Assembly (NCBI GenBank): GCA_021806205.1
Contig: JAJZXX010000155.1
Location: 1 to 34,796 of the forward strand
From: Bacillota bacterium
GTDB lineage: Bacteria; Bacillota; Sulfobacillia; Sulfobacillales; Sulfobacillaceae
Direction: 5' to 3'
Length of the DNA: 34,796 nt
Under the pieces are notes generated by a model, which was not told the DNA's origin, did no database searches, and worked only from the letters and a program-made list of their open reading frames with translations. Positions 1,621 through 11,694 of this stretch are shown here, in pieces. Each line of letters opens with the position of its first letter. Positions within the stretch are counted from its first letter, which is position 1. The translations under genes and the position numbers were made by a program.

Positions 1621-2448
1621 GTGGAAAACACGATAGCACAGCCGACCGACAAGTCGATTACGGGGGTTACAGGGTTTGAGCAGGAGGTTGCACCTGGGAT
1701 AAAGGACCTGGCTAAAATGGTGGATCGGCTGGGCAAGTTGAAAAAAGTTGGTCAGCAGGCAAACCTCGTGAACTTGTTGGAACTGCGCAAGCAATTAGAC
1801 GATATAAACCGATTGGCAGGCGAAGTTAAGGAGTTTGCGAGCCTAATCAAAAAGCAGGTGGATGGCGTTGCGGTCGCGCTAACGGAGCGTGACCAGATTG
1901 AGTGGTGGGAGCGATTTCGGCAATCGTTTCATGCTGGTTATCCGCCGGTGGAGGGGGAATATCCCACTTTTCAGGTGTTTCCGGTGGAGATTCGGGTAGA
2001 CTTGGAGCACGAATTGATTATGGTTAACAACCGTATTGTTCGGGTGTTGCATCCTGAAGCGGTGGCCACTCAGGTGGAAAAAGACTGGGATCGGCTCAAT
2101 CGCGAACGGTTCAATGCGGCGTCCTTCGCGAAAGGTCTTTTGCGTGCATACGACCTCTTAGTGTCTGAAGCACGGGATAAGGCGCAAGGCAGAACTGTCG
2201 GAGCATCGGTGTCTCTAAAGTTGTTGCACCAAACATTGGCACTGAGGGCGGGTGCCGCAGGATACCCATTAAATCAGTTCGCTTTCGACATCTATCGGCT
2301 TCGTCAAAGCCCTCACCTTGTAATTGAAGGTCGTCGTATGGAGTTTGGGTCTACGCGTAACCGTGGAGGGATTGTTATTACTCATCCGAATGGTCATCAG
2401 GAAAACCTCGGGTCCCTAGAGTTGGTCGCCGAGGGTAATCAGACATGA
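1621..2448 (+). CDS. Unknown coiled-coil protein, first gene of BREX-like cassette
   Basis: This is a 275-residue protein that I do not recognise. It starts with GTG behind AAAGGGGGCG. Residues about 25-90 are rich in Leu, Lys, Glu and Gln in a heptad-like pattern (ending near FASLIKKQV) and look like a coiled coil. Then come a compact alpha/beta middle (YPTFQVFPVEIRVDLE) and a C-terminal segment (GRRMEFGSTRNRGGIVITH) that reads like a beta-rich end. There is no signal peptide and no membrane span. Its stop overlaps the next ATG (ATGA at 2445-2448), so translation is probably coupled to the ATPase that follows. By position it could be an adaptor or DNA-binding subunit, loosely comparable to the small BrxA/BrxB proteins of BREX, but no sequence link to them was seen. 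Confidence 0.85.
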   Translation: MENTIAQPTDKSITGVTGFEQEVAPGIKDLAKMVDRLGKLKKVGQQANLVNLLELRKQLDDINRLAGEVKEFASLIKKQVDGVAVALTERDQIEWWERFRQSFHAGYPPVEGEYPTFQVFPVEIRVDLEHELIMVNNRIVRVLHPEAVATQVEKDWDRLNRERFNAASFAKGLLRAYDLLVSEARDKAQGRTVGASVSLKLLHQTLALRAGAAGYPLNQFAFDIYRLRQSPHLVIEGRRMEFGSTRNRGGIVITHPNGHQENLGSLELVAEGNQT

Positions 2449-3656
2449 CCGAGGGTAATAGTCGACCGTTGGGTGGAAGCGACCGCTGGCCGGACGCTAG
2501 CTTATGGCCTGATGCAGTCATTGAAGAGACTTATGTCGATCCTTTCGGCCTAGTCAAGTTTTGGGAGCAATGGTATTTAGACGGGTTTGTAAACCGAGGG
2601 CAGGGCAAAGTGAAGTGCCTGGTAGGTAGGCCTGGGGCTGGCAAAACCCATGTTTTACGTTACCTTTCCAGTGTTGCAGGGAAACGGGGATTTCAGGTGG
2701 CCCGGGTGGACGTGTCAGACATCAAGGTTGCTGCCATTGACGATTTATATCGGGAGGTAGCCACCCAGATAAACTGGGATGTTCTGTTAAGTCGTATTCT
2801 TGTACACGTCATTCAAAACGAGTTGGGTTATCCGGAGTTTGATCGCGACCCCGCTAGCTTTATAAGCTGGGGCGAGTCAATCCGTCAGCTTACGCCGAAT
2901 TTCCTGCGCCGGGACCTTCGTGAAGCTATCAATAAACATTTTCAGCAAGTAGACTGGTATTCTGACTTTGCCATGGCCGTGCGGTCATGGATATTGGACC
3001 ATGTGAGCGACAATCCACTTGGCGGCTCAGCGGAAGTCGCCTGGTTACGCGGCGAGAAATTGGGCGCCAGTCATAGAAAAAGCATGGGTACCCGCAGTAA
3101 TATCAATCGTCGCAATGCCAGACTCTGTCTTGGATCGCTGGCGTCGTTGGCGCACGTGGCATTTGGGCAAGGGCTGATAGTCCTAGTGGATAATGTGGAG
3201 GTTATGGCCTCGTCGACTCGGGTAGAGAATCGACCGTATTACACCCGTGGTTCGCGTGATCAAGCCTATGAAATGTTTCGGCAGCTCATTGATGAGAGTC
3301 CCTTGACCCCTTATCTTATGACCATTCTCTGCGGTGACGAAGATCCGCTCAGCGGATCGCAAATCGGATTTCCTTCCTATCCGGCCCTTTGGGCGCGGTT
3401 AGAGACGGAGATACATAGCGATAAGCCCAACCTATTTGCGGATTGGGTGAGCTTAGATGCTTTATGGGAGCAAGACGCCGTGGCGTTGGATGCATTGAGG
3501 GAGCGTTGGCTTCGGATTTCGGCTGACTGGTGGGTGGATGCCGATGGCAATCCCAGTGGAACGATGCAGCCGTTAGGATTAGAATGGGGGCGGCCGCGGC
3601 GAATGATCGCTGAATTATGGACTGAGGCGTCGGTGAAAGGAGGCGATGCCTGGTGA
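2445..3656 (+). CDS. P-loop ATPase, BrxD/DUF2791-like, with altered Walker B
   Basis: This 403-residue cytoplasmic protein has a perfect Walker A at residues 61-68 (GRPGAGKT). The Walker B strand is LIVLVDNVE with D249-N250, so the usual catalytic Glu after the Asp is Asn. The block VAWLRGEKLG, followed by NINRRNARLCLGSLASLA, resembles the middle of BrxD-type (DUF2791) ATPases of BREX systems. The C-terminus (about 290-403) holds a GDEDPLSG sensor-like loop and a Trp-rich tail. It starts with ATG overlapping the previous stop and ends overlapping the next GTG, so it is made in step with both neighbours. The missing Glu suggests ATP binding with slow or absent hydrolysis, perhaps as the regulatory half of a pair with the next protein. 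Family assignment is from motif memory, not a search. Confidence 0.85.
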   Translation: MTEGNSRPLGGSDRWPDASLWPDAVIEETYVDPFGLVKFWEQWYLDGFVNRGQGKVKCLVGRPGAGKTHVLRYLSSVAGKRGFQVARVDVSDIKVAAIDDLYREVATQINWDVLLSRILVHVIQNELGYPEFDRDPASFISWGESIRQLTPNFLRRDLREAINKHFQQVDWYSDFAMAVRSWILDHVSDNPLGGSAEVAWLRGEKLGASHRKSMGTRSNINRRNARLCLGSLASLAHVAFGQGLIVLVDNVEVMASSTRVENRPYYTRGSRDQAYEMFRQLIDESPLTPYLMTILCGDEDPLSGSQIGFPSYPALWARLETEIHSDKPNLFADWVSLDALWEQDAVALDALRERWLRISADWWVDADGNPSGTMQPLGLEWGRPRRMIAELWTEASVKGGDAW

Positions 3657-4888
3657 ACAGTGCACGGGTTATCGTGGAAGGTCTAAGATCTGGTATCCCC
3701 TATCGCAAGACGGCCCAGGCGGTCACTATCGGTCGTGAAGCCAACATCAAGGCGCTGGTAACCCTTTTGGAAACGGTAGAGAGTGGCGGGCGTCCAACAA
3801 TGTTTTCGCAAATTGTTCGAGCCCAATATGGTGAAGGTAAAACCCATTTGATGCATGCTCTGGCTTCATCAGCATGGGATCGCAATTGGGTTGTGAGCAT
3901 GGCGGCAATAAGCAAAGAGACACCGCTGGATCGTCTCGATCAGCTGTATCCCAAATTGACGATGAATGCACTACGCCCGGGTAGTACTCAAGCCGGATTA
4001 GACTCGGTTGTCACGGAGGCACTTGCAGTTCCACACTTGTTGGCGGAGTCCCGGGCCGTGAATCTTTCCGAGCGTACTCGCGCCATTTTGGATAATCTAG
4101 TTCGACAAGATGCCGGTCTCGATGAACTCATGGGGGACATCCACGGGCAATTCCTGCCGCTGGCAACGATTAAACGGATCCACCGTGAGAATTACGGGAA
4201 GACCCTCAAAATTTCATCGACTCGGATTAAGGATGAGATTCCTTCTTACTTGGGGTTACTCGACTGGCTGATTAGCCGGGCCGGTTATGGGGGTTGGCTA
4301 ATATTGCTGGATGAGGTTGAACTGATCGGAAAGTTTGGCCGTGGCGGTCGTGCCCGCAGTTACGCTAATATGGGTCGGTTTATGGAGGGTATGGGTGAAC
4401 GAACGGTGTCGGTTTGGGCTGTGGCGGGAAATTTTCAGAATGACGTGATTGTGGCGCGGGACGATGCCGTGCACGCCCCACAATGGCTGGCGTCTCGCCC
4501 TCAAGAAGCAAAGGATGCCGAATTGGCGGTGATGGCCGTTGACGAATTATCGGCGGCGCGGCCACTTTCACATCCCCAACCTGCCGAGATTCGTGAAATG
4601 GTAGAACGGGTATATGATCTGCACCAAGAGGCCTATGCCTGGTCTGCACCCCTATCGCGTAACCAGTTCTATTCGGCGGTACATGAGCGGATCGGGGTGG
4701 TGGATGCGCGAATTCGGACGTGGGTACGGCTCTCTTTAAGTCTGTTAGACTTGTGGTTTCTTCATGGAGTAGACGCCGCGGAAGTTCGGGCTGATGAACT
4801 GGTCGAGATCGATCTATCCGAGGAGCCGGACGATCACTCGCACAAGGAATCGGTCGAGTTGATCGAGCGCCGGCCACTTTTTGACTAG
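3653..4888 (+). CDS. brxD-like: P-loop ATPase, BrxD/DUF2791-like
   Basis: This 411-residue ATPase starts with GTG 3653, which overlaps the preceding TGA and sits behind a strong AAAGGAGG at 3637-3644. The phosphate loop is the shortened type YGEGKT (residues 59-64, within RAQYGEGKTHL), as in BrxD proteins (typically YGSGKT). The Walker B is LILLDEVE with D220-E221, so the hydrolysis residues are present, unlike in the upstream ATPase. The order N-terminal REANIKAL helix, P-loop, ETPLDRLDQLY, Walker B, then a helical C-terminus fits DUF2791. BrxD is an ATPase of BREX types 2 and 6 with an incompletely known role. Here it probably partners the BrxL-like protein encoded next. The stop at 4886-4888 lies 10 bp before the preferred start of the next gene. 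Confidence 0.88.
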   Translation: MNSARVIVEGLRSGIPYRKTAQAVTIGREANIKALVTLLETVESGGRPTMFSQIVRAQYGEGKTHLMHALASSAWDRNWVVSMAAISKETPLDRLDQLYPKLTMNALRPGSTQAGLDSVVTEALAVPHLLAESRAVNLSERTRAILDNLVRQDAGLDELMGDIHGQFLPLATIKRIHRENYGKTLKISSTRIKDEIPSYLGLLDWLISRAGYGGWLILLDEVELIGKFGRGGRARSYANMGRFMEGMGERTVSVWAVAGNFQNDVIVARDDAVHAPQWLASRPQEAKDAELAVMAVDELSAARPLSHPQPAEIREMVERVYDLHQEAYAWSAPLSRNQFYSAVHERIGVVDARIRTWVRLSLSLLDLWFLHGVDAAEVRADELVEIDLSEEPDDHSHKESVELIERRPLFD

Positions 4889-4898
4889 AGGAGTGGGG

Positions 4899-7025
4899 AT
4901 GGAAAGTTGGATTGAGGGTCGACAGGGGTCGATTGGGACGCGGGCAGTCCGCGTCTTTGGAACGGTGTGGCGGGACCGGCAGGGATCGCCCAAAGCGAGA
5001 TTGGGCGGTCAGTTGCCCGAGTTTTTGGTAGAATATTTAGTAGCATTACATGGTGTGCATGGCGCGAGCCTCTTGGTAGAGGCACACTTTCCTACGACGC
5101 GCAATCGACAACTTTTGAAATATCAGCTCATACATGACGGCCATGTGGATCTTCTGGATTATGTGGAGGTTACGGTCGATTTGGAGCAGAACACTGCTGT
5201 TGCGCAATTGACGGCGTTTCAGCACCAGTTCCCAATTGATCCCGCGCTCTTGGAAGAGAATCCAGATCTATTGGCAGGCGGCCTTTGGGGACGTGTGACC
5301 GTAGGGAGCCGGCCCGATTCGATCGGCCGTGACGAAGTCGTAGGCGAACCTTGGGTCGATGGTGAATCACTGTTATCGGCCCCAAACGAGTCGTTTTGGG
5401 CTTCGGATTCTCCGCCGCACGTGAGTGGATTTCAGCCCTACCAGGCCAGGGTGGATGTGCACAGCTTTGTCCATGCGCGCCAGGTGTTCAATACCGAAGA
5501 ATGGATTGATCTCCTGTTGGCGTCCGGTGGATATAATCCGGAATGGATTCGTAGTCAGCCGGATGGGAGAAGGCTCACCCGCCTTTACCTGATGCGATTT
5601 TTGCCCATGGTGGAACGCAATGTGAACCTTTTGGAACTTGGTCCCAAGAACACCGGTAAAACTTACCTATTAAGGAACTTGTCCCCTCATGCCTTTACTG
5701 TGGCCGGGGGAGGTGCTACCCCTGCGAACCTTTTCGTAAACTTAACCACCGGACGGCCCGGCCTCATTCAAAGTCGACGCGTGATTGTTTTTGACGAGGT
5801 GGCGCGGGTGCGATTTAGTCAAAACCGCGGCACATTGAGCTTGCTGAAAGATTACATGGAAAGTGGTCAATTTTCCCGAGGCCGGGCTTCGCATGGGGCG
5901 GACACGTCGTTGGTGTTTATGGGCAACTTGGAAGTTGAGGGTTCACGGCCCGCCCCACGTTATCGGCATCTCTTTGAAGTTTTGCCCCAAGAGTTGAAGG
6001 ATACGGCCATATTGGATCGACTACATGCCTTTGTGCCGGGATGGGAGTTTCCAAAATTGACCCCACAGGTGCTGGATCCACCAATGGGATTGGCATCCGA
6101 CTATTTTGGGGAAGCGCTGCTAGCACTGCGAGATTGGCCGTATGATGACGTATGGCTTACTGCGCAAAGGCGGTGGCCCGTTAGAGGGGATCTCAACCGG
6201 CGCGATATTACCGCTTTGGACCGAATAGGACGAGGCCTTTTTAAATTGGTATTCCCTGATGGGAATCTGGATCCGACTGTCGCTGAAGAACTCTTAGGAC
6301 TGGCGGCCGAGTGCCGGCAACGAATTCACGAACAGCTCATGAAAATGGAACCGGGTGAATTCCCGCCGTACATCATCGGGTATCATGGAATCGTAAGCCG
6401 CGACGACAATAGGATGCGGGTCGAAACGCCGTTGGATCATCAAATCAATACGGCACCGCGGGCGGGTGAAGCGACTTCCGTCGCGGCAGCTACCGATAAT
6501 GTTACGGGATCTGTCAGCACGGAAGTGGCAATGGTCCAGGTAGTTATGACCACGAGCAAACGCTACCAGCCTACCTTGCTGGCAGACCCTGGGTTAATAG
6601 GTCTGGAGGCAGTGTGGCAGGTCGCACACTTTTTTCTTAAATCCCATAGCCAGCGATTAGGTCTATCATCCGTGGCGCGATGGGAGGGAATCGGGATACA
6701 GTGGACCGGGGGTCCCGGCGATCTGAGAGGACGATGTGAGCTATCGCTAGTCATGGCTCTGGTGTCGGCGTGGTTGAGAAAACCGTTGCCGCCAGCCCTG
6801 GCCATCATTGGGGGCATGACCGTCGCTGGTGATGTGGTAACACCTTCAGATATGGTGGCATTGACCATGGCAGCGCTCAACCGCGGACGTCAAATCATTG
6901 TGTTACCTGAGGGAAGCCCCATTGATTTATTGCGCGACACGTTCTCCACAACATTTGATCCGACAACCTGGGTCGCGGTGCCTACCGCCATGCGTGCACT
7001 TCGCTGGGCATTTTCAGATCGGTAA
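4899..7025 (+). CDS. brxL-like: BrxL-like AAA+ protein with degenerate Lon-protease-like C-terminus
   Basis: ATG 4899 is chosen over the in-frame TTG 4881 and GTG 4893 because AGAGGAG (4887-4893) sits just upstream. The protein is 708 residues. The AAA+ core has Walker A GPKNTGKT at 248-255, followed by AGGGATPANLF, and Walker B VIVFDEVA with D299-E300. The blocks KDYMESGQFSRG, LDRLHAFVPGWE and DLNRRDITALDRIGRGLFKL are strongly like BrxL of BREX. BrxL forms DNA-encircling AAA+ rings needed for phage defence. The C-terminal about 150 residues resemble the Lon S16 fold, but where Lon has GPSAG the sequence reads RGRCELS (610-616), and a hydrophobic residue replaces the catalytic Lys. Proteolysis is therefore unlikely. 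It is the last gene of the four-gene operon. Confidence 0.9.
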   Translation: MESWIEGRQGSIGTRAVRVFGTVWRDRQGSPKARLGGQLPEFLVEYLVALHGVHGASLLVEAHFPTTRNRQLLKYQLIHDGHVDLLDYVEVTVDLEQNTAVAQLTAFQHQFPIDPALLEENPDLLAGGLWGRVTVGSRPDSIGRDEVVGEPWVDGESLLSAPNESFWASDSPPHVSGFQPYQARVDVHSFVHARQVFNTEEWIDLLLASGGYNPEWIRSQPDGRRLTRLYLMRFLPMVERNVNLLELGPKNTGKTYLLRNLSPHAFTVAGGGATPANLFVNLTTGRPGLIQSRRVIVFDEVARVRFSQNRGTLSLLKDYMESGQFSRGRASHGADTSLVFMGNLEVEGSRPAPRYRHLFEVLPQELKDTAILDRLHAFVPGWEFPKLTPQVLDPPMGLASDYFGEALLALRDWPYDDVWLTAQRRWPVRGDLNRRDITALDRIGRGLFKLVFPDGNLDPTVAEELLGLAAECRQRIHEQLMKMEPGEFPPYIIGYHGIVSRDDNRMRVETPLDHQINTAPRAGEATSVAAATDNVTGSVSTEVAMVQVVMTTSKRYQPTLLADPGLIGLEAVWQVAHFFLKSHSQRLGLSSVARWEGIGIQWTGGPGDLRGRCELSLVMALVSAWLRKPLPPALAIIGGMTVAGDVVTPSDMVALTMAALNRGRQIIVLPEGSPIDLLRDTFSTTFDPTTWVAVPTAMRALRWAFSDR

Positions 7026-7940: not shown

Positions 7941-7971
7941 GGCCCACATTCCTTTCAAATGATAATCTGTT

Positions 7972-8006
7972 GCATATACGATATGCCATCATTAGGTACC
8001 TGTCAA
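7972..8006 (-). promoter_or_regulatory. Sigma-A-type promoter with palindromic operator for the NicO-like gene
   Basis: On the minus strand TTGACA (8006-8001) and TATCGT (7983-7978) are 17 bp apart, a good housekeeping promoter reading into the transporter gene. The -10 lies inside a perfect inverted repeat, GCATAT-ACG-ATATGC (7972-7986). A repressor bound there would block RNA polymerase. The regulator was not identified. Confidence 0.6.
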
Positions 8007-8253
8007 GTCACCAGCCAAACAATTTTTGCTCCCAACGGTTCCTCTTGTGCATAGGGAATGACTCGGGTGTTTTAGTCCGAGACTGCAAGTGATAAGGGGA
8101 TGCTAAGCGTGATGACCATGTTTGACCTACGGGACAGGTGTGCTAAAGTCTGAAGTAGATAAAGGATGCGCGGATGTGGGAGAACGTGAGAGGTACTGGC
8201 ATGCACCAGGTGGCCCACATACATTTGTTTGGAAAGGGATGAAGGTTGGATCT

Positions 8254-8685
8254 ATGGAATATCGCATGATGGCGGGCAAGATTCATCGCGCTACGGTGAC
8301 GGAGGCGAACTTGAATTACATTGGATCGATCACCATCGATCAAAACCTTTTAACCGCGTCCGGATTGTTGCCCTATGAAATGGTGCAAATTACAAATCTC
8401 GCCAATGGAGCCCTCTGGCAAACCTATATTATTGCGGGCGAAGCGGGAAAGGGCGACATTTGCCTGAATGGGCCGCCTGCGCGTCTCTTTCATCCCCATG
8501 ATCTCGTGGTTATTTTGGGTTGGAGAAATCTTACTCGCGATGAGTTGCGTACATACCAACCCCATGTCGTTTTTGTCGACGAGCACAACCAGATCACCGA
8601 TGTGACGACGGAGGAATCTCCCTTTAAGGAATATGTCAACCACCCCGGCCTGAAGGCCGGAGCTTCTGAAACCTCCATCGGTTGA
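8254..8685 (+). CDS. panD: Aspartate 1-decarboxylase, C-terminus altered by insertion element
   Basis: The enzyme makes beta-alanine from L-aspartate for pantothenate and CoA synthesis. ATG 8254 places the self-cleavage site (YIG-S at Gly24-Ser25, giving the pyruvoyl group) exactly where it lies in E. coli PanD. GAAGG at 8241-8245 is a plausible ribosome binding site. A longer open frame back to TTG 8122 has no PanD-like sequence. Conserved blocks are KIHRATVTEANLNYIGSITID, ICLNGPPARL and the DELRTYQPHVVFVDE tail. Normal PanD is about 126 residues. Here the native protein reads to about residue 130 (EESPFKEYV), and the last 13 or so codons come from the left end of the IscB element. The core is intact and it is probably active. 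Confidence 0.9.
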   Translation: MEYRMMAGKIHRATVTEANLNYIGSITIDQNLLTASGLLPYEMVQITNLANGALWQTYIIAGEAGKGDICLNGPPARLFHPHDLVVILGWRNLTRDELRTYQPHVVFVDEHNQITDVTTEESPFKEYVNHPGLKAGASETSIG

Positions 8686-8904
8686 CCAGTCTCAGCCGTT
8701 TTGCACGGCCCCGTTCGGTCAGTGCAGGCCTTGGGGTGCTTCTCCAGCCCCAAGCCCTCCGGGTTCACGTTAAAAGCATATGCTCAGGGTAATGTCAGCG
8801 GTGCCCTGACAGATTTCGACCTGATCGAACCTTGGCGAGGAGAGATCCCGTATGCGCGGGATGTTATCAGCTCAGCCCCTTACGGGGCAGAAAGCAGGGC
8901 AATC
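8637..8904 (+). ncRNA. Probable omega-RNA scaffold region of a decayed IscB element
   Basis: The stretch begins with the palindrome CCGGCCTGAAGGCCGG (8647-8662), typical of IscB-type IS200/IS605 ends. It holds further pairable segments (TTGGGGTGCTTCTCCAGCCCCAA, CCCCTTACGGGG) and leads directly into the iscB reading frame. In IscB loci this position encodes the omega-RNA, whose guide comes from the DNA flanking the left end, here the panD tail. Whether it is still made is unknown. It overlaps the last panD codons. Confidence 0.55.
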
Positions 8905-9403
8905 ATGGTTCGGTTCTCGATCAGCACAAGAAACCGCTCATGCCGTGCTCCGAAAAACGGGCCCGTACTGCGATACTTCGAATGCCACCTTTCAAATCGA
9001 TTACGTCCTCCCGAAAGACGGTGGTCGCTCCGATCGGGTGTCAAACTTAGCCCTCGCCTGTCCCGCTTGCAACCGGTAAGGGTAATCGGTAGCTGGCCGA
9101 CTTTTTCACTCATGACGCCGGTGCCGGCGTCGCGTCCGGAAGAATGCGCACCGCAGGCTGCACCGTGGGAAACGACCCGCCTCGAACGGGCTCAACGCCA
9201 AATGAGAGCGCCCCTTCAAGATGCCGCGGCCATGAATGAATGCCACACGCTGGCGTCTTTCTGAACGGTTGACGGCACATGCTGACGGCCGATTTGTCGT
9301 CATGACTGCGGACGGCAACAAGATTGAGGGGCACTCTGACCAGCGCTGCATTCTGCAACGCCTAGATGGCTGGCCGTATACTCAACGCCGGGTTACTGGA
9401 TAA
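8905..9403 (+). pseudogene. iscB: IscB RNA-guided nuclease remnant with internal deletions and frameshifts
   Basis: Pieces of IscB are readable in order but in different frames. VLDQHKKPLMPCSEKRAR (about 8912-8965) is the N-terminal PLMP domain. It is followed directly, with the bridge helix and the RuvC parts before the HNH missing, by the HNH nuclease core (FQIDYVLPKDGG, then SDRVSNLALACPACN, about 8985-9078). RAPLQDAAAMN and RWRLSERL (9200-9275) resemble the conserved RuvC-III region. IEGHSDQRCILQRLDGW (9325-9375) is the C-terminal target-adjacent-motif domain. An intact IscB gene is about 1.2-1.5 kb, while this is 0.5 kb. The His expected after the Asp in the HNH (IDH) is Tyr. It cannot make an active nuclease. 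Confidence 0.8.
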
Positions 9404-9609
9404 CCGTTACCTGGCGGTGCTCCTCCACCCTTCGGGTACTACGCTGCCCTGAAGGGCGAGGCCCCCGCACCGTCAAAAATTGCTTGGGAAGAGGATAGGG
9501 CTTGAAGGTGTCGCGTTCTTCAGGGGCTGCGTGTATCGGCAGAGCGCCAAGAAAATCGATTAAGATTGCTTGTCTTGATGAGGCTATCAGACATAGTTGA
9601 TGAGCCTGA

Positions 9610-11694
9610 TCATTCGGTTTGGCGAATCCCTTCAGTTAGAGGTTGCATCACCGAAGTTTCTGCACAGGCCCTTTCTACATCGACCCGGGTTGAGAAAAAA
9701 GCGGCACCCTGGCCGAAATCCGAGAGCCTCTGGGGGGTGAGAGCGTTGATGGGTTGGTGATGGGGATTCCCGCCGTCCCACCATAATCCTTGGCTCACAA
9801 CAACGCCCTTTAAGAGGTTTGTCCCCACCCGAGCTCTAAGACAGCATTGACCCCGATCGTTCCACACCCAAACCAGGTCGCCACTCCTTACGGATCTTTT
9901 TTCCGCATCTGCGACATGCATGGCCAGGAACGGCTCTCGTTCAGCGTGCTTCAGTGATTCCATATTGCCAAAGGTAGAATTTAAAAAGTTGTGGTTAGGA
10001 GCCGACACAAGTTGTAGCGGATAAGTCTCGGGCTCCCTCAGTGGAGTATGGTCCGGAAGCGGAGGCCATCCCAACTGCTGCAGTGATTCCGAATAGAACT
10101 CTATCTTTCCCGATGGAGTGGGAATATGGGTGGGGAACAGCGGATGATGGCGGAGATTCAACTTGATCCATCCACGGGTTTTCAGCGACTCATAGGTGAC
10201 ATCGGTGAGATAAGGGCTGTCGCTATCCATGGCTTCTCGAATCATGTCTGTTTCGGTGCACTGAAAACACGCGTCATCAAACCCCATGCGAAGTGCGAGT
10301 TCTTTAAACAGGGTGAAATTCGACTTGGATTCCCCTAAAGGCTCGATAATTGGTTCGTGCAGTTGAAGATAGAGGTGCCAATAGGATTTGTATAAGTCAC
10401 GATTCTCGAAATGGCTGGTTGCGGGCAGTACGATGTTCGCGAAACGGCAGGTATCGGTCAGGAATAGGTCGTGGACGACGGTGAATAAATCGTCACGCAT
10501 CAGCCCTTCTCGGACTTTGTTCTGGTCGGGAGATACCAAAGCCGGGTTGCTATTATACACAAAAAGCGCTTTTATGGGGGGCGTGGCATTAAGCAAGGCG
10601 TTGCCCAATTGATTCATGTTAATCGTACGCGCATGGGGATTGGGGTGCAGTTCTGGACGTTGAAGTGCAGGGAGACTCAATCCGGCGTACCAGGCATTGC
10701 CCTTAAGAGCACCACCTCCTTTGATGCCCCATTGGCCCGTCAAGGCGGGTAGACAGGTGATTGTACGGACAGTCATCCCCCCATTGTCGTGATGTTGTAA
10801 CCCATTTCCAATACGGATAAACGAGGGGCTGGTGGTGCCGTATAGGCGAGCCAGGTGGACGATATCATCCGATGGAACGCCAGTAATCCGGGACACATAT
10901 TGAGGCTTATATGTTTGAACGTGTTCTACGAGTTCCTCATAACCGTATGTATGCCTGGTAATGAATGGGTGGTTGACCAGGTCTTCGGTAACGATCACAT
11001 GCATGATGCCCAATGCTAAGGCCGCATCTGTACCGGGTAAAATAGGTATGAACCAATCTGCCCAACGTGCGGTGCGATTTTGGTGTACATCGATATGGAC
11101 GATGGTGGCGCCGCGCTTGCGCGCCTGGTCGGCATAAATCGCTTGATGCATATTGGTCGCAATGATGTTGGCGCCCCAAATGATAATGAGGTTGGAGGCC
11201 ACGGTCTCTTCCGGATCGATGCCGGCGTTGACGCCCATGGTATACCGAAATCCTTCGGATCCGGCGCTATTACAGATGGTTCGGTCGAGATGACTGGCGC
11301 CGAGCCGATTGAAAAAACGCCGGTCCATCCCTTCTGCGTTTAGCACACCCATATTCCCATAAAAACTATAGGGCAAAATGGCTTCAGATCCATACCGCTC
11401 GATGATCGATTGAAATCGGCTCACAAGTTCCGCATAGGCCTCATCCCAAGTTATTGGATCAAATGTCAGAGTACCTTTTGGGCCTCGCCTCCTTAGTGGC
11501 TGCAATAGACGCTCTTTGTGGTAGACGCGTTGCGGTAAGAGCCGCACTTTATTGCAGATGGCGCCTTTTGTGACCGGATGCTGTGGATTACCGCTGACCT
11601 TGATAATCTTTCCGCCTTCTTTAACCACGTTGAGGCTGCAGGTATCTGGGCAGTCAAATGGGCAAACTGATGGGGCTATGGTTTGTTGTGGCAA
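9610..11694 (-). CDS. Molybdopterin-dependent oxidoreductase (DMSO reductase superfamily, YyaE-like)
   Basis: The protein has 694 residues. It starts with TTG behind AAGGTG. The N-terminus holds a [4Fe-4S] Cys set, C11, C15, C19 and C47 (CPFDCPDTC and GAICNK). The molybdopterin domain follows (WDEAY near 85, SAGSEGFRYTMG, SNLIIIWGANI, GNGLQHHDNGG, SNPALVSPD), and the C-terminal beta-barrel dinucleotide-binding domain (MHVADAEKRSVRSGDLVWVWN) is complete. No twin-arginine signal is present, so it is probably cytoplasmic. No electron-transfer or membrane-anchor gene is adjacent. Members of this subgroup are annotated as generic molybdopterin oxidoreductases with unknown substrates; sulfur, arsenic or formate chemistry cannot be told from the sequence. 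It stands alone, followed by about 130 bp without features. Confidence 0.9.
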   Translation of the reverse strand: MPQQTIAPSVCPFDCPDTCSLNVVKEGGKIIKVSGNPQHPVTKGAICNKVRLLPQRVYHKERLLQPLRRRGPKGTLTFDPITWDEAYAELVSRFQSIIERYGSEAILPYSFYGNMGVLNAEGMDRRFFNRLGASHLDRTICNSAGSEGFRYTMGVNAGIDPEETVASNLIIIWGANIIATNMHQAIYADQARKRGATIVHIDVHQNRTARWADWFIPILPGTDAALALGIMHVIVTEDLVNHPFITRHTYGYEELVEHVQTYKPQYVSRITGVPSDDIVHLARLYGTTSPSFIRIGNGLQHHDNGGMTVRTITCLPALTGQWGIKGGGALKGNAWYAGLSLPALQRPELHPNPHARTINMNQLGNALLNATPPIKALFVYNSNPALVSPDQNKVREGLMRDDLFTVVHDLFLTDTCRFANIVLPATSHFENRDLYKSYWHLYLQLHEPIIEPLGESKSNFTLFKELALRMGFDDACFQCTETDMIREAMDSDSPYLTDVTYESLKTRGWIKLNLRHHPLFPTHIPTPSGKIEFYSESLQQLGWPPLPDHTPLREPETYPLQLVSAPNHNFLNSTFGNMESLKHAEREPFLAMHVADAEKRSVRSGDLVWVWNDRGQCCLRARVGTNLLKGVVVSQGLWWDGGNPHHQPINALTPQRLSDFGQGAAFFSTRVDVERACAETSVMQPLTEGIRQTE

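Follow-up and report, generated by a model that had tools for sequence, protein, structure and literature searches.

The window analyzed here, a stretch of 34,796 nucleotides from a bacterium of the Sulfobacillaceae, carries a paralogue of panD, the gene for aspartate 1-decarboxylase, into whose last codons the omega-RNA of an ISC element is fused. Remnants of an iscB gene and an eroded right end follow in the same orientation. The genome (G000) is a draft of 3.77 Mb in 254 contigs and is 87% complete. The following features were recognized:

8254-8685, + strand: panD paralogue (aspartate 1-decarboxylase; Pfam PF02261, E=3e-43)
8619-8634, + strand: position of the guide segment, panD-derived, 16 nt 5' of the HEARO start
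8635-8849, + strand: HEARO/omega-RNA scaffold (RF02033); its 5' end is the left end of the element
8905-8907, + strand: former iscB start codon, offset by 1 base from the frame of the PLMP block (from sequence)
8913-8965, + strand: IscB PLMP block, aa ~5-22 (tblastn, E=2e-6)
8965/8966, + strand: deletion junction, 535 bp gone relative to locus L009, aa ~23-199 (blastn)
8966-9076, + strand: IscB HNH block (aa 200-236) carrying H212Y and G220R in the numbering of locus L002 (tblastn, NCBIfam)
9158-9270, + strand: IscB post-HNH segment, ending MNATRWRL, aa ~255-273, frameshifted (83% identical to L005:1966-2073, piecewise alignment)
9266-9390, + strand: IscB C-terminal block, aa ~384-420 (tblastn with L002, E=2e-4)
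9420-9476, + strand: ISC right-end hairpin region, its end eroded and lacking RTGA (right ends compared by eye)

HEARO (RF02033) was the sole Rfam match at gathering level in the window. It aligned over the full model (1-211) with E=1.1e-15, and its 83.7 bits lie just above the cut-off of 83. A sequence-only reading of this DNA had placed a fossil IscB with its omega-RNA at the 3' end of panD and had named a covariance search among its checks; the HEARO match at 8635-8849, the tblastn pieces described below and a score of 148.5 bits with a family covariance model all bear the proposal out. This family model drew on the omega-RNAs of 17 loci whose IscB frames are open, namely L002 and 16 loci of relatives, the window RNA being excluded. 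The start of the element, first put at 8637, moves to 8635. Here the left-end hairpin adjoins the flank, and its first 26 nt are identical to those of the copies on contigs C126, C163 and C194. The first 31 nt are also identical to those of L008, another HEARO locus of this genome. The structured region upstream of the gene is recognizable, as had been claimed, but "well preserved" overstates its condition: 49 of 56 family pairs are kept, and of the 7 that are broken four fall in a single 3' helix. Compared with L002, positions 8648-8965 are 68% identical. Single-strand folding energy was an uninformative measure here, as the window RNA (z=-1.31) was unremarkable and an intact omega-RNA scored z=-0.03. 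The RNA lies 3' of panD in the same direction, and the two terminator-like sites found in 8000-9700 correspond to the chance level.

The nuclease gene was traced by tblastn of the genome's own intact IscB (L002) against the whole window. Matches were obtained at 8913-8981 (E=2e-6), at 8966-9364 (E=2e-9, gapped and running through stops) and at 9266-9379 (E=2e-4), while matches elsewhere in the window had E values of 1.2 or worse. The match of L003 to the C-terminal block extends to 9388. With five IscB queries the best off-locus match reached E=0.018 (L009, 5409-5254), and the on-locus matches used were all at or below 0.007. Together, four IscB pieces lie in order between 8913 and 9390. The HNH piece alone matched the NCBIfam model guided_IscB with E=1.9e-7 and 30.5 bits, where the cut-off for the whole protein is 175. 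The ordered blocks are thus significant against the family and mark an IscB pseudogene. The order of the PLMP, HNH and C-terminal blocks agrees with what had been read before; the piece then called RuvC-III-like, DAAAMNATRWRL, in fact precedes RuvC-III, whose H/D motif is missing.

Comparison with L009 by blastn located the first loss. Positions 8873-8965 correspond to L009:1793-1886 and 8966-9076 to L009:2422-2528, placing a deletion of 535 bp exactly between 8965 and 8966. It removed what we take, from the established anatomy of IscB, to be RuvC-I, the bridge helix and RuvC-II. No obvious short direct repeats were seen at the junction. Among the matches listed, no other copy shares the junction as a mobile deleted form would: those that reach it end at most 6 bases from it (query 325-336) or start there (332). 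Two are exceptions, namely G020:C267 (16-355), a locus with an open IscB frame, and G001:C99 (327-487), whose match starts slightly ahead of the junction. A second loss of ~110 codons (aa 273 to 383) took the RuvC-III H/D motif, HYYDALCV in L002. In addition, the HNH histidine is a tyrosine (IDYVLPK; H212Y), and stops occur in all three frames of the remnant. As judged from its coding sequence, the IscB nuclease is broken, with neither an open frame nor the full set of RuvC-I/II/III and HNH catalytic residues. At the right end, RTGA follows 10 of 11 elements compared by eye; L154/L002 is also without it.

The insertion has reshaped the host gene. The first base of the element (8635) is the first base of panD codon 128, and codons 128-143 as well as the TGA stop (8683-8685) come from the inserted omega-RNA, so that 8635-8685 supplies the last 16 residues of PanD. 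The stop codon sits in the 3' strand of the first helix of the omega-RNA, and translation of panD should disturb the folding of the RNA's 5' end. Two further panD genes of the genome (71% and 48% identity) are not among its HEARO places. In the 61 genomes examined, which include 60 relatives, panD was matched in 40 and HEARO in at least 27; among the HEARO and panD matches listed, HEARO adjoins panD at this locus only. A synteny search for the empty site among panD loci gave matches of at most 18 bases for the flank 9471-9640 and for the region preceding panD (7959-8260).

We take the IscB guide to be the nucleotides just before the scaffold, about 16 nt, which places it at 8619-8634. These positions are panD sequence, in agreement with the earlier proposal that the guide derives from panD. 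Apart from its own position, the guide region matched the genome at two poor sites, one with 2 and one with 3 mismatches in 17; the reversed pattern, used as a control, gave 4 matches. The better of the two sites is followed by ATCG, not RTGA, and no good second target was found in the genome. Upstream of the genome's other 12 HEARO matches, the flanking sequence is different in every case.

The genome has 13 HEARO matches. The IscB frame is intact at three (L002, L006, L011), in answer to the earlier call for an intact IscB elsewhere in the genome, broken at eight (L001, L003, L004, which is the window element, L005, L007, L009, L010 and L012) and not detectable downstream of the RNA at two (L008 and L013). 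L003 consists of a single open frame, yet it is frameshifted from HNH on and its HNH has no Pfam match; at L012 the sole remnant is a C-terminal piece. Full-length open IscB frames are found on C157 (425 aa), C78 (409 aa) and C155 (446 aa, divergent). The left ends of two further elements are cut off at the ends of contigs C126 (L175) and C194 (L174) and are identical over 127 bp, and C251 (L178) starts, from its first base, inside an open IscB frame of 340 aa. The C126 and C194 left ends probably belong to recent multi-copy elements split by the assembly; that C251 is part of the same copies is a guess. The best reading is that ISC elements, both live and decaying, abound in this lineage and that the window element is one ordinary fossil among them.

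Other internally deleted iscB copies occur at L133 (aa 34 to 189), L005 (34 to 252) and L007 (45 to 318). In all three, the omega-RNA survives together with the first 34-45 codons and pieces further along the gene; ascertainment by a HEARO match favours the finding of such deletions that spare the RNA. The window contains further mobile and defence genes. A divergent IS200/IS605 pair lies close to the start of the contig. It consists of a TnpA that looks complete (127-783, - strand; NF033573, E=6e-40) and a TnpB frame (835-1308, + strand) whose match covers only about the first third of the family models. An unassigned gene at 1621-2448 precedes a consecutive row at 2445-7025 (+ strand), in which two genes for BrxD-like ATPases score below the NCBIfam cut-off and BrxL (TIGR02688) exceeds it. 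The row may be a partial or unusual BREX-like defence operon, adjoining the IS element near the contig end. Among the titles listed by a literature search, most subscription papers being outside its reach, none concerns this locus.

The sequence-only reading had further suggested that the RNA outlived its nuclease as a regulator. We compared the decay of the RNA with that of the coding pieces at conserved sites. These were defined on 17 intact-IscB loci, of which 15 had also entered the model and two, L135 and L159, had not. Coding sites were codon positions 1 and 2 of the recognizable pieces, aligned piecewise. At the 94% threshold, 9 of 100 conserved sites were changed in the RNA versus 4 of 89 in the coding pieces (Fisher p=0.26), a result that does not favour survival of the RNA as a regulator. 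The measured coding decay is lowered by the fact that only recognizable pieces can be aligned, and two of the four coding changes lie at the edges of the second deletion. The 88% threshold gave 10/117 versus 7/99 (p=0.80) and the 99% threshold 7/74 versus 2/62 (p=0.18). Held-out intact loci showed change at 2.4% of RNA sites (30/1271) and 1.0% of coding sites (49/4879). Window RNA and coding pieces hence show no detectable difference in decay; the numbers are small, and weak constraint on the RNA is compatible with them.

Pooling nine other dead loci gave 62/626 changed sites for RNA versus 107/1405 for coding (p=0.10), the RNA being slightly worse, in a cruder alignment of the kind that scored frameshift misalignments of the window element (L004) as changes. 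One locus, L133 (G031:C2), goes the opposite way, with 0/74 RNA sites and 8/153 coding sites changed (p=0.056). Its IscB is dead (aa ~35-188 missing, one stop), and its RNA keeps 53/56 pairs and scores 126.1 Rfam bits. L133 is possibly a better candidate than the window for a retained RNA, or merely a case of recent loss.

Broken pairs were counted as a second measure. The RNAs of the 17 intact loci have 0-6 broken pairs (median 1), compared to 7 in the window; 15 of these RNAs belonged to the model's training set, and L135 (1 broken pair) and L159 (0) were outside it. The divergent loci with open frames, L006, L011, L164 and L168, have 9, 10, 13 and 4. Since three of these four carry 9-13 broken pairs and so exceed the window, the count alone does not prove decay and partly reflects distance from the model. 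Random substitution at 5, 7 and 9% in 15 of the 17 intact RNAs (without L161 and L128) broke on average 5.3, 7.0 and 8.5 pairs, a range that includes the window's 7. Over all classed loci, the median of broken pairs was 9.1% for dead (n=13) and 1.8% for intact loci (n=21; p=0.003). Rfam bits, which are independent of the family model built here, followed the same trend, with medians of 80.6 (dead, n=10) versus 102.3 (intact, n=17; p=0.003), or 76.8 (n=13) versus 99.3 (n=21; p=0.004) over all classed loci. The window's 83.7 bits exceed those of 4 of the 21 intact loci. The four divergent loci are outside the main intact set of 17 and enter the count of 21; L008, L012 and L013, with no or almost no IscB, are outside the dead set of ten and enter the count of 13. 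Searched with the family model but unclassed were L125, L151, L152, L138 (the place of L157), L139-L142, L166, L167, L169, L170 and L173, and also L137, which has 8 broken pairs and an IscB frame that looks open. Omega-RNAs beside dead IscBs thus tend to decay too, and the window RNA is not set apart from them.

We consider it likely, with a probability of about 0.8, that the locus is an ordinary decayed ISC element with a dead iscB, an omega-RNA drifting like the coding pieces and no reuse. An ISC-type element (IS200/IS605 superfamily) with omega-RNA and iscB would have inserted into the last codons of the panD paralogue of a Sulfobacillus-family bacterium. While the element was intact, the guide of its omega-RNA would have been a copy of the panD 3' end, and IscB could have cut the empty panD site and thereby favoured retention of the element, as the known mechanism of the family suggests. 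RNA-guided activity of the IscB family is described in PMC9755519 and PMC9581776. Two deletions, frameshifts and missense changes would then have killed iscB; the omega-RNA would have been spared the deletions and would have drifted through point mutations about as fast as the coding pieces that survive. From these features we infer both the past activity of the element and its present lack of function.

By homology, the locus is of the known ISC/HEARO kind, and the initial observation is confirmed with the corrections given above. Like HEARO RF02033, the omega-RNA of IscB, the window RNA matches the covariance model over its full length and lies where expected, 5' of iscB and correctly oriented; unlike that family, it has 7 of 56 family pairs broken and its nuclease is dead. 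With the IscB of ISC elements (NF040563) the remnant shares the PLMP, HNH and C-terminal blocks in order, whereas RuvC-I, RuvC-II and the RuvC-III H/D are missing, the HNH histidine is changed and the frame is broken. Standalone omega-RNAs acting in trans (Altae-Tran 2021, as cited in PMC9581776) resemble the window in that no usable nuclease adjoins the RNA and intact IscB frames exist in the genome, but the window retains nuclease remains and no sign of retention was found in it. CreTA, a CRISPR-like RNA reused as a regulator (PMC9458426), offers a parallel in idea, namely that a guide RNA may persist beyond its original use; in contrast, the window insertion showed no conservation among the panD and HEARO matches listed, and no good second target was found for its guide.

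Could the omega-RNA, made from the panD transcript, be used in trans by an intact IscB encoded elsewhere in the genome? The open full-length frames on C157, C78 and C155 would provide the nuclease, as might the related and apparently recent family truncated where C126 and C194 end, together with the open IscB frame in which C251 starts; standalone omega-RNAs functional with IscB have been reported (Altae-Tran 2021, cited in PMC9581776), and the RNA lies behind panD on the same strand, with terminator-like sites at the chance level only. However, the L002 IscB accompanies a clearly different omega-RNA (68% identity over 8648-8965), four pairs are broken in a single 3' helix of the window RNA, and no second target was found for the guide, the better of its two poor sites lacking RTGA. 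We therefore regard trans use as unlikely. A more specific version is that the nuclease-less omega-RNA, carried at the 3' end of the panD mRNA with its panD guide, is loaded by the IscB of another locus and polices or represses element-free panD copies such as incoming alleles. This seems distinctly improbable; if true, the fossil element would be a source of guides for its relatives.

A role in cis, with the omega-RNA taken over as a 3' untranslated region or regulator of panD, would fit the fusion of the RNA to panD in the same direction, with panD ending inside the scaffold. Yet the decay of the RNA is indistinguishable from that of the coding remnants, the RNA adjoins this panD only among the listed panD genes and HEARO matches, neither of the genome's other two panD genes coincides with a HEARO place, and the folding energy is unremarkable, which together make such a role very improbable. 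That the nuclease merely seems broken through an assembly error is hardly credible: the fragmented draft (254 contigs, 87% complete) does have unresolved repeats, but two separate deletions, frameshifts and catalytic missense changes with ordered flanks are atypical of such errors, and other copies have breaks of their own.

As an ordinary decayed ISC element, the locus records a case in which a host enzyme was given a new C-terminus and stop codon by the insertion of an omega-RNA. The tempting idea that the RNA outlives its nuclease is now quantified in a lineage where both live and dead ISC elements are numerous: pooled, the omega-RNAs beside dead IscBs were kept no better than the dead genes themselves, with L133 as a possible exception.
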